This document shows, piece by piece, positions 7,919 through 47,629 of a stretch of DNA of 51,162 nt. Numbering within the stretch: position 1 is the first letter of the stretch; each line of letters starts with the position of its first letter. The notes under the pieces are model-generated. The model did no database searches. It was not told the DNA's origin and saw nothing but the letters and a program-made list of their open reading frames with translations. The DNA comes from Candidatus Wolfebacteria bacterium RIFOXYD12_FULL_48_21 (GTDB lineage: Bacteria; Patescibacteriota; Minisyncoccia; UBA6257; UBA9933): NCBI GenBank assembly GCA_001793945.1, contig MGIW01000006.1, forward strand, positions 134,179 to 185,340, read 5' to 3'. Made by a program: the position numbers and the translations under genes.

Positions 7919-7942
7919 AAAGGAGCGCGTATGCGCTCCTTT
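7919..7942 (+). terminator. Hairpin after the sigma/HARE gene
   Basis: AAAGGAGCGC-GTAT-GCGCTCCTTT, a perfect 10-bp stem starting 20 nt after the stop. The T tract is short, so termination may be incomplete. Confidence 0.65.
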
Positions 7943-8145
7943 GTCATTCCCGCGGAGGCGGGAAGCCATCTTTTCGTACTTTTTTAATAAAGTACGGCAA
8001 AAATCGCGAGCGAGTAAAAATGGCGGAATGGGCTCTGAAATCTCTTACGAAACTGCGAACTCGCTCCTGTGCGCCGCTCAAACAACGCAGTTTCTGAGGA
8101 GATTTCCATCGCCCATTTGATCCGCCATTTTCACAGGCTCGCAGT
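7943..8145. repeat. ~205-bp structured dispersed repeat, copy A
   Basis: Similar to 47424-47629 over its whole length. It begins with a TCCCGC/GCGGGA hairpin and a GTACTTT.../...AAAGTAC hairpin, then a long foldback: an outer GCGAGC/GCTCGC stem, AAATGGCGGAATGGGC facing GCCCATTTGATCCGCCATTT, GAAATCTC (8037-8044)/GAGATTTC (8099-8106), and GAAACTGCG (8049-8057)/CGCAGTTTC (8086-8094). The two inner stems differ from copy B but stay paired. An open reading frame on the minus strand is a by-product of the structure. It fills most of the gap between the gene ending at 7899 and the one starting at 8225. Confidence 0.8.
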
Positions 8146-8207
8146 CGCAGAATGCAAAAAGTCATAGCGCATGCCTTTCCGCGCTTTTTTGTTGGACCAT
8201 TTTACGA

Positions 8208-11665: not shown

Positions 11666-12235
11666 ATGTTAGGCATCAACGACTTGGAAAAAGGAAGCTC
11701 TATCATTATGGACGGAGATCCGTTTATTGTACTTGAAATATCCCATCAGCATGTCGGACGGGGAGGTTCTTCCGTGCAGACGAAATTGAAAAATCTGCGC
11801 ACCGGCCAAGTGCTGTCGCGCAACTTTAAGCCGGCCGACGAATTTGAAGAAGCCGAAGTGGAAGAATTGAAATCAAAATATCTGTATGCAAGCAAGGGCG
11901 AGTTTTGGTTTTGCGAATCGGCAAACCCGGGTAAGCGGTTCAGCTTGACCGAAGAAACGGTCGGTGATCAGAGGGATTTTTTGAAGGCCGACATGGAAGT
12001 GGTCGCGCTTATCTTTAATGAAAAGATATTCGCCGTGCGGTTGCCGGTCAAAATGGAATACCGGGTCGCGGAAGCCCCTCCGGCCATTAAGGGCAATACC
12101 GCACAAGGCGGCACGAAGGTCGTGGTCCTTGAATCAGGCGCAAAGGTGAATGTACCCATGTTCATCAACGAAAACGACATCATTCGTGTAAATACGCAGA
12201 CCGGCGAGTATGCCGAGCGCGTGGAAAAAGCGTGA
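11666..12235 (+). CDS. efp: Translation elongation factor P
   Basis: A 189-residue EF-P with the three expected beta-barrel domains: KOW-like residues 1-65, central OB about 70-128, and the C-terminal OB ending in DIIRVNTQTGEYAERV, the EF-P signature. EF-P binds between the P and E sites and rescues ribosomes stalled at polyproline. The tip of the domain I loop reads HVGRGGSS with Arg at position 32, where E. coli has the modified Lys34. An arginine tip is the type rhamnosylated by EarP in some proteobacteria, but no modification gene is in the window. It is a single-gene unit with a TATAAT box and a strong terminator hairpin. Confidence 0.95.
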   Translation: MLGINDLEKGSSIIMDGDPFIVLEISHQHVGRGGSSVQTKLKNLRTGQVLSRNFKPADEFEEAEVEELKSKYLYASKGEFWFCESANPGKRFSLTEETVGDQRDFLKADMEVVALIFNEKIFAVRLPVKMEYRVAEAPPAIKGNTAQGGTKVVVLESGAKVNVPMFINENDIIRVNTQTGEYAERVEKA

Positions 12236-12320
12236 GTAAAGCTCGATAGCTCATTAGCTTGATAGCTTAATAGAAGGATAGCTCCATAGAGAAGAAGCTT
12301 GATAGCTCGTTAGTCAAGAT
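12236..12320. repeat. Degenerate octamer array (AGCTCAAT type)
   Basis: Successive 8-nt words AGCTCGAT, AGCTCATT, AGCTTGAT, AGCTTAAT, AGAAGGAT, AGCTCCAT ... AGCTTGAT, AGCTCGTT follow one another between efp and its terminator. Shorter arrays with the same words occur at 17107, 26261, 31998 and 32646. Confidence 0.7.
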
Positions 12321-46003: not shown

Positions 46004-47365
46004 TTAGATTGTATGCACCGTATCCACTTCGGTAAAGGAAACCTTTTCCGGGTTCCACAAAAGCGGAACATCGCCAAGCGGGCCGTTGCGGTGTTTGGTG
46101 ACGATCAGGGCCGACTTGTTTTTTTCTTCGGCTGACATAAGGTCCTTTGCGTCGCGGTTGAAACGGTGGATGAACATGACGATGTCGGCGTCCTGTTCCC
46201 ATGAACCGGTTTCCCGCAGGTCGGAAAGGCGCGGGGTTTTATCGTCGCGGCTTTCTACGCCACGGCTCAACTGCGACAAGGCGAGTACGGGTACATTTAA
46301 TTCACGCGCCAAGCCTTTGATGCCATGGCTGATCTCGGTAAACTGTTGAACGCTGTTTTCGCTGTGGCGGCTCGGCTGAATGAGTTGGACATAATCGATG
46401 ACGATCAGGTCGAGCTCGTGTTCCATTTTGAGTTTGCGCGCCATGGAGCGGATCTGCAGTACGGTCGGAGACGGCGTGTCATCGACATAGATCTTCATGC
46501 GCGACAGGCGATCGAGCGCGGCCTGGATCATTTGGAAATCCATTTCATCGGTGATGCGGCCCGAGCGCAGGTTCCACAATGGAACGCCCGATTCGGTGGC
46601 GATGAGACGGTCGATGATCTGTTCTTTGGACATTTCGAGTGAGAATACCGCGATCGAAGCGCCAGCCTTTGCCGCGCCGCGCACCATGTCGAGCGTTACC
46701 GCGGTTTTACCCATGGACGGGCGCGCGCCGAGAATGATCATGTCTGATTTTTGAAACCCTGAAAGCAATGTATCAAGCCCCTTGAAGCCCGAACTGGTGC
46801 CCGAAAGACCTTGCATGCCTAAGTTCTTTTCCATGCGCTCGTACGCGGCCTTGAGGTGGTCGGAAATCGGCGTAAATGCGTATGTCTTTGACTTTTGGTT
46901 GATCGCGAAGATCTTTTGCTCGATCATATCGAGCATCTCATCGGGGTTTTCCTGATTTTGGAACACATCTTCGCTGATGCGTGCGGCCGTGGTCAACAAT
47001 TCACGCAATACCTTCTTTTGCTTTACTATGCCTCCATAGTGATCCACATGAGCGGATGAGGGGACCGAGTTAATAAGCTCGGTAAGGTAGGTCGAGCCGC
47101 CGACGGTATCAATCTGATTTCTATCTTTTAACTTCGTCGTAACGGTCAGTACATCGATGGGCTGGTTTTTTTCGAATAGCTCAATGATCGCCTGATAGAT
47201 CTTTTGATGCGCGGGGACATAAAAATCCCGGTCTTCGAGAAAATCGAGAACCTTTAATACAGCATTTTTGTCGAGCATCAACGCACCGAGGACCGACTTT
47301 TCGGCGTCAATGTCCTGTGGCGGCAGTTTCGGATCAAGATTTCCTTTGGTAGTTCCTTTAGACAT
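46004..47365 (-). CDS. dnaB: Replicative DNA helicase DnaB
   Basis: 453 residues from the ATG at 47365 (the next upstream in-frame start adds 21 residues that look non-conserved). The N-terminal helical domain (PPQDIDAEKSVLGALMLDKNA at about 11-31) and the RecA-like C-terminal domain are complete: Walker A GARPSMGKTAVTLD, H1a region, Walker B LDLIVIDYVQLI, and the arginine finger region ALSQLSRGVESRDDKTPRLSDLRETGSWEQDAD. It unwinds DNA at the fork. No intein or insertion. recR follows 104 nt downstream on the same strand. Confidence 0.95.
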   Translation of the reverse strand: MSKGTTKGNLDPKLPPQDIDAEKSVLGALMLDKNAVLKVLDFLEDRDFYVPAHQKIYQAIIELFEKNQPIDVLTVTTKLKDRNQIDTVGGSTYLTELINSVPSSAHVDHYGGIVKQKKVLRELLTTAARISEDVFQNQENPDEMLDMIEQKIFAINQKSKTYAFTPISDHLKAAYERMEKNLGMQGLSGTSSGFKGLDTLLSGFQKSDMIILGARPSMGKTAVTLDMVRGAAKAGASIAVFSLEMSKEQIIDRLIATESGVPLWNLRSGRITDEMDFQMIQAALDRLSRMKIYVDDTPSPTVLQIRSMARKLKMEHELDLIVIDYVQLIQPSRHSENSVQQFTEISHGIKGLARELNVPVLALSQLSRGVESRDDKTPRLSDLRETGSWEQDADIVMFIHRFNRDAKDLMSAEEKNKSALIVTKHRNGPLGDVPLLWNPEKVSFTEVDTVHTI

Positions 47366-47423
47366 GGCAATAATACTTCCATTGTATGGCAAGAGTTGCC
47401 TATGGGCAAGCCTTTGTTTTTTC

Positions 47424-47629
47424 GTCATTCCCGCAGATGCGGGAGGCTCTCTTTCTGTACTTTTTTCTAGGAAAAAAGTACCAAAAAAGTCGCGAGCGAA
47501 TAAAAATGGCGGAATGGACTCGTAAATTTCTTACGAAAACGAGAACTCGCCGTTACTACGGCTCAAACAACTCGTTTTCTGAGGAAATTTATTTTCGCCC
47601 ATTTGGTCCGCCATTTTCACAGGCTCGCA
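47424..47629. repeat. ~205-bp structured dispersed repeat, copy B
   Basis: Counterpart of 7943-8145. GTACTTTTTTC-TAGG-AAAAAGTAC hairpin, then GCGAGC/GCTCGC, ATGGCGGAATGG facing CCATTTGGTCCGCCAT-like arms, AAATTTC (47524-47530)/GAAATTT (47584-47590) and GAAAACGAG (47535-47543)/CTCGTTTTC (47571-47579). A small inner hairpin GCCG-TTACTA-CGGC is seen only here. The apparent ORF through it is not a gene. It occupies most of the divergent gap between dnaB and 47728. Confidence 0.8.

Follow-up and report, generated by a model that had tools for sequence, protein, structure and literature searches.

A mobile fold-back element in Candidatus Wolfebacteria that may move as folded single-stranded DNA

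A window of 51,162 nucleotides from Candidatus Wolfebacteria bacterium RIFOXYD12_FULL_48_21 contains two copies of an element that is dispersed, nested within itself and absent from the corresponding sites of relatives. Its stems change in a compensated manner, whereas a tip motif, a preceding hairpin and the spacing between these two are mostly constant. On balance, this element is probably a non-autonomous mobile fold-back element of a REP/MITE-like kind, composed of a REP-like hairpin, an A/T-rich hairpin (hairpin 1) and an imperfect palindrome of 139 nt whose tip is conserved, and it would move as folded minus-strand single-stranded DNA with the aid of an enzyme acting in trans.

Both copies reported in an earlier note on this DNA are present as described, with cores at 8005-8143 and 47491-47629 that share the outer arms GCGAGC/GCTCGC and ATGGCGGAATGG with its partner. 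The differences listed there between the inner stems (GAAACTGCG/CGCAGTTTC versus GAAAACGAG/CTCGTTTTC, and AAATCTC/GAGATTT versus AAATTTC/GAAATTT) are all confirmed, and the statement that the copies adjoin core genes is a fair one, the neighbors being a sigma-70 region 4/HARE-HTH protein and dnaB. The span originally given for copy 1 (7943-8145) also covers two further hairpins, which are read from the plus-strand sequence: a REP-like left module of the CGTC-1/dRS3 type at 7942-7968 (TGTC-ATTCCCGC-GGAG-GCGGGAAG-CCA) and A/T-rich hairpin 1 at 7975-7996 (CGTACTTT..AAAGTACG, then GCAAAAA). The 139-nt core fold-back at 8005-8143, CGCGAGCGA..GGCTCGCA, is defined by its fold, by covariation and by empty sites, minus being the likely folded strand. 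Its tip motif, which is conserved while the stems change, occupies plus-strand positions 8057-8084, with GAACTCGC at 8057-8064 and GCTCAAACA at 8076-8084. Downstream of GCTCGCA, the right-end consensus GAATGC is found at 8150-8155 on the plus strand, and may mark either an end or a target preference. Copy 2 is 80% identical to copy 1 across most of the element. On the plus strand its sequence gives a left module with a decayed 3' arm (47423-47446; CGTC-ATTCCCGC-AGAT-GCGGGAGG), hairpin 1 (47457-47481; GTACTTTTTT..AAAAAAGTAC) and a tip motif at 47543-47569 (GAACTCGC at 47543-47550, GCTCAAACA at 47561-47569), while its 139-nt core at 47491-47629 is defined by fold and empty sites. The longest dnaB reading frame has its ATG start at 47426-47428, within the inserted REP, and the native start probably lies near 47365.

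Four Candidatus Wolfebacteria genomes carry the dispersed element. Covariance-model searches give matches in all four genomes of the genus, in one more of the family, and in 5 of the 244 genomes in the order, with approximately nine copies in the genome to which the window belongs (G000, 879 kb) and 5-12 in each of the other three (Candidatus Wolfebacteria GWE2_44_13, GWB1_47_1 and RIFOXYB1_FULL_54_12). A scan of a genome collection returned eight stretches, seven from Wolfebacteria together with one candidate match in a Ruminococcus MAG (L105). At the site of copy 1, the genes of G002 match the window across 7900 and 8184 with about 46 bases between them and without the copy, which is also absent from the matching site in G001. 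At the site of copy 2, about 77 bases separate the matching segments in G001 and about 100 in G002, compared to more than 300 in the window. Moreover, copies are nested inside older copies (L091, L093 and L102). Dispersal, empty sites in two relatives, and nesting together identify the element as a mobile insertion, and its mobile nature is nearly certain. No target site duplication is cleanly readable at the compared sites, where the flanks have diverged.

The order of parts on the plus strand is a REP-like hairpin, hairpin 1 of the GTAC..GTAC type, (G)CAAAAA, the 139-nt fold-back with its ends CGCGAGCGA..GGCTCGCA, internal loop TTAC/TGAG and tip, and often GAATGC-like bases. Hairpin 1 precedes the core in most copies, and most have GCGAGC/GCTCGC as outer arms. 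The tip motif is conserved, with varying stems, in one of two tip classes; the other (..CCC..GGGACCC..) is seen in part of the Wolfebacteria copies, mainly in G002. Evidence of pairing between the hairpin 1 loop and downstream bases in a pseudoknot is weak, given that 22 of 1000 swaps are equally good. AATRC follows the core within 22 nt in 19 of 41 copies versus 16 of 202 control windows, and the presence of GGAATAC in the G002 empty site of copy 1 implies that the right-end GAATGC may be a target sequence. REP-like sequence is found upstream in 24 of 41 copies versus 5 of 40 control stretches, and the REP-like hairpin also occurs alone, scattered through G000. A second fold-back family (..CGGCTCCGAC..GTTGCAC..GCTAGCAACGCCAAG; about nine copies) occupies the same place repeatedly, either in the tip or between hairpin 1 and the core (L004 1563-1778, L008 1504-1719, L097, L098, L099 and L101). 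The two G000 copies L004 and L008 hold it within the tip, and AACGCCAAGG, which is the end of this second family, lies directly upstream of the core in 9 of 41 copies. Two other repeats are present in the window, namely a 43-nt repeat of AGCTCRATAGCTC-like units in seven copies (12235-12317, 17103, 26258, 31997 and 32660) and a 52-nt repeat, TGTCATYCCGATCCGCCAG..GAGAGGRATCTG, in three (41005, 42590 and 50640), the latter being another REP-like family.

Both window copies fold far better than shuffled sequences, with z-scores of -8.1 and -8.3 on the plus strand and -8.5 and -9.0 on the minus strand, and none of 200 shuffles equals them. Between copy 1 and copy 2, 4 of 39 pairs have changed on both sides and one on a single side. 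The claim that these changes are compensatory holds in a larger alignment of 19 copies, with 39 pairs compared to 500 shuffles that do not correct for relatedness: 92.7% of the cells are paired (82.3% shuffled), 81 cells carry double changes (22.6 shuffled) and the covariation score is 0.322 (0.131 shuffled), with no shuffle reaching any of these values. When the 3' arm is displaced by 1-3 columns, which preserves relatedness, pairing falls to 35-53%, although a structure derived from the same sequences is biased toward such a drop. Further standard pair types show no excess over shuffles among the 19 copies, 272 of 500 being as good.

Functional RNAs are conventionally proved by covariation. 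The element might be transcribed and kept under selection as an RNA fold, whether as an sRNA, an mRNA stabilizer or an RNA-based mobile element, and the strong covariation of the 19 copies, the conserved internal loop and tip, and good folding on both strands are all consistent with this idea. The mismatches in the stems, however, argue for a different kept form. We classified 1319 stem cells in 34 of the 71 covariance-model matches (33 from the genus and one from G006), leaving out opposite-strand matches of the palindrome, the repeated rows L086 and L087, and eight matches that were divergent, partial or distant (L093, L102, L303, L306, L304, L305, L302 and L117). Read on the plus strand, 1238 cells are Watson-Crick, 15 are G.U, 30 A.C, 32 pyrimidine-pyrimidine and 4 purine-purine, whereas 15 control tRNAs from the same sequence set contain 292 Watson-Crick pairs, 22 G.U pairs and no other mismatch. 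The stems therefore seem to be held in Watson-Crick form without the RNA-like tolerance of G.U that is clear in the tRNAs, although the difference between G.U and A.C has p 0.036 by cells, which are not independent of one another, and is not significant by distinct types (9 versus 14, p 0.40). The excess of pyrimidine-pyrimidine over purine-purine mismatches is seen by distinct types as well (22 versus 3, p 0.00016). The numbers of changed cells in the two arms are close (37 and 40), so the 32-to-4 imbalance is not due to one arm changing more, and we read it as a sign that one strand matters. Seen from the minus strand, they become rich in G.T and G.A, which are the better-tolerated mismatches in DNA, and DNA folding parameters favor this strand in 30 of 34 copies, a count that is not independent of the mismatches. 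In addition, Rfam searches of the window give tRNAs only, and only tRNAs reach the gathering cut-off in 15 loci. Copy 2 apparently lies between divergently transcribed genes. No preferred orientation to neighboring genes is seen by crude and unreliable ORF calls, the caller, which picked an antisense ORF as the left gene of copy 1, being too crude for any claim of a terminator or mRNA role. Folded minus-strand DNA is the likely kept form, and a structured RNA the less likely one, to which we would give a rather low probability.

The earlier note took the compensation as a sign that the element is conserved for its folded form. It is indeed dispersed and its changes compensatory, but the RNA signature is missing and mutational upkeep could also maintain a palindrome. 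The element might be an inert mobile repeat whose fold has no function, with template switching in quasipalindromes and gene conversion between copies upholding the palindrome. Mutation by template switching is reported both to generate hairpins and to fix them (PMC8794818). In favor of this explanation, most divergence bins contain more double than single changes (the numbers are equal in the closest bin, which has 2 comparisons), and double changes adjoin one another more than at random (1364 versus 895). The copies L078 and L080, which stand at matching sites with matching flanks, show 5 double and 2 single changes between them, pointing to the exchange or replacement of whole stems in the manner that block exchange predicts. 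Nevertheless, such processes do not account for the strand-asymmetric mismatches, or for an unpaired tip and a hairpin 1 spacing that are conserved across phyla, and upkeep by mutation alone, while possible, appears unlikely to us. A repeat that passes covariation analysis without a G.U signature is in any case a useful test case for separating selection on an RNA from selection on single-stranded DNA or from mutational repair.

Our preferred reading is that the fold is kept, as single-stranded DNA, since movement requires it. The minus strand would fold when the element moves, and an enzyme supplied in trans, perhaps a Y1/HUH-type transposase, would recognize the folded strand and its tip. 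If only those copies that still fold are copied on, the stems would remain palindromic while their letters drift. A search for a transposase recognizing the element ends, in which Y1_Tnp and RVT_1 were sought, found none. Y1_Tnp is present in 178 of 379 phylum genomes and RVT_1 in 134. As mobilizer, a Y1 transposase was set aside for lack of an association, being found in 7 of 11 architecture-positive genomes versus 171 of 368 others (p 0.36), the 11 having been picked by hand, and Y1_Tnp is absent from the element carriers G001, G006, G569 and G524. The one Y1 gene of G000, the only one whose flanks were read, is flanked by AATGTAACGATGTC-type palindromes and not by the element; in L031 (1262-2045) these palindromes, AATGTAACGATGTC..GACATCGTTACATT, stand on both sides of the gene, with one more inside the reading frame. 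A reverse transcriptase was likewise set aside. RVT_1 is commoner in the hand-picked architecture-positive sets, with 8 of 11 versus 126 of 368 (p 0.02) and p 0.0065 for a wider set of 16 genomes, but this association is not upheld within the family, where 3 of 5 genomes with the element and 8 of 17 without it have the domain. Moreover, G001 and G006 carry the element without RVT_1, which also counts against an RNA-based route, and the eight copies in G001 coexist with neither Y1_Tnp nor RVT_1. In G000 (C5:52429-53125) and G003 (C3:110846-111506), RVT_1 matches as two adjacent pieces, perhaps a broken gene.

Parts of this layout recur in other bacteria. In the phylum sample, the covariance model finds 3 of 379 genomes, its own included, with filters that lose weak matches, and matches in other families are seen in G569 and G524. 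The tip pattern is found in 24 of the 379 genomes (41 matches) compared to 12 (13 matches) for the reversed pattern, and scans of viral contigs returned 67 and 89 stretches, many of them chance matches. Among 94 non-redundant tip-motif matches with enough flank, 22 have an upstream hairpin of at least 8 bp at one fixed place, compared to 4 of 455 random places. G000 itself contributes two of these 22 (L138 and L151). CTTT is present in the arm of all 22 fixed-place hairpins, and CAAA follows 19 of them. The layout-positive matches include other CPR families as well as contigs that look Pasteurellaceae-like and Bacteroidetes-like by our reading of their text. The shortest tips, on the minus strand, are GCGNAGC or GCCGAAGGC, and DNA mini-hairpins with GNA loops are described as exceptionally stable (PMC4686876). 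A GNA-type tip is seen in 13 of the 22 layout-positive matches, or in 7 of 16 once six that came from a scan whose pattern already contained TNC are set aside, and the tips of the Wolfebacteria copies are longer than a GNA triloop. We tentatively suggest, with some doubt, that a hitherto undescribed superfamily of mobile elements that fold back as single-stranded DNA may extend across several bacterial phyla (CPR, Pasteurellaceae and Bacteroidetes-like). Its members would combine an A/T-rich hairpin, approximately 60-75 nt of stem that is free in sequence, and a tip of the GNA type on the minus strand (TGTTTGAGC..GCGAGTTC), and would be moved by an enzyme reading the folded minus strand. Chance or convergence, acting on a tip motif of few letters that had been picked out of these very sequences, does explain most tip-motif matches, 72 of the 94 having no hairpin 1 at the expected place and many lying within apparent phage genes, but is a very improbable source of the layout itself given the fixed-place hairpin with its CTTT and CAAA and the covariance-model matches in other families.

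A record annotated as Pasteurella multocida (L312, 895-1330) has the left half of the layout in its DUF484-dapF gap, where two copies of a related fold-back with a different tip (GCAGACTACGCACTGCGTGCTTCGCTG) face one another. Searching a phage collection with a Pasteurellaceae-like copy gave no match. Eight viral contigs (L174, L182, L183, L187, L196, L207, L221 and L235) have in common GCTCAAACACTGGCGCAC..GTACGGGGG..CCCCCGT right after the tip motif, and represent a different recurrent element. The letters of the element and a name for it gave no match in the text, as distinct from the figures, of open-licence literature. Should the layout seen across phyla represent a single family, it would be a mobile element unnamed in that literature and yet present in well-studied groups such as Pasteurellaceae.

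Among known systems, integron attC sites are imperfect palindromes whose bottom strand acts in folded form, with stems that vary freely, bulges that fix the strand, and GTTRRRY/RYYYAAC boxes. The element resembles them in its imperfect palindrome, variable stems and probable use of one folded strand, but has GCGAGC/GCTCGC where attC sites have these boxes. IS200/IS605-RAYT systems employ Y1 transposases that act on folded single-stranded DNA, and would account for both the strand-specific folding and the neighboring REPs, although the presence of Y1 genes does not follow that of the element and the one in G000 has other repeats on its flanks. REPs are single hairpins of 20-40 bp, and those of the CGTC type have a CGTC/TGTC tag, a stem of 8-9 bp starting with AT, a loop of 4-5 bases and a CCA tail (PMC3733652). 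The left module alone corresponds to this type, as in the CGTC-1 REP (dRS3 in Neisseria), having the tag, an 8-bp stem that starts with AT, a 4-base loop and the CCA tail, with 7 of 8 pairs intact in copy 1 and the 3' arm decayed in copy 2. Unlike a REP, the whole element continues beyond this module into hairpin 1 and the 139-nt fold-back, and so falls outside the definition of a single short palindrome. Finally, MITEs and Correia-like elements are short, non-coding, intergenic, dispersed and palindromic sequences without an enzyme of their own. The element shares all of these properties and, as G001 and G002 lack it at both window sites, is polymorphic between relatives as MITE insertions are, but instead of terminal inverted repeats alone it has a core that folds back with compensated changes over its whole length and has a conserved tip, together with hairpins that stand outside it.
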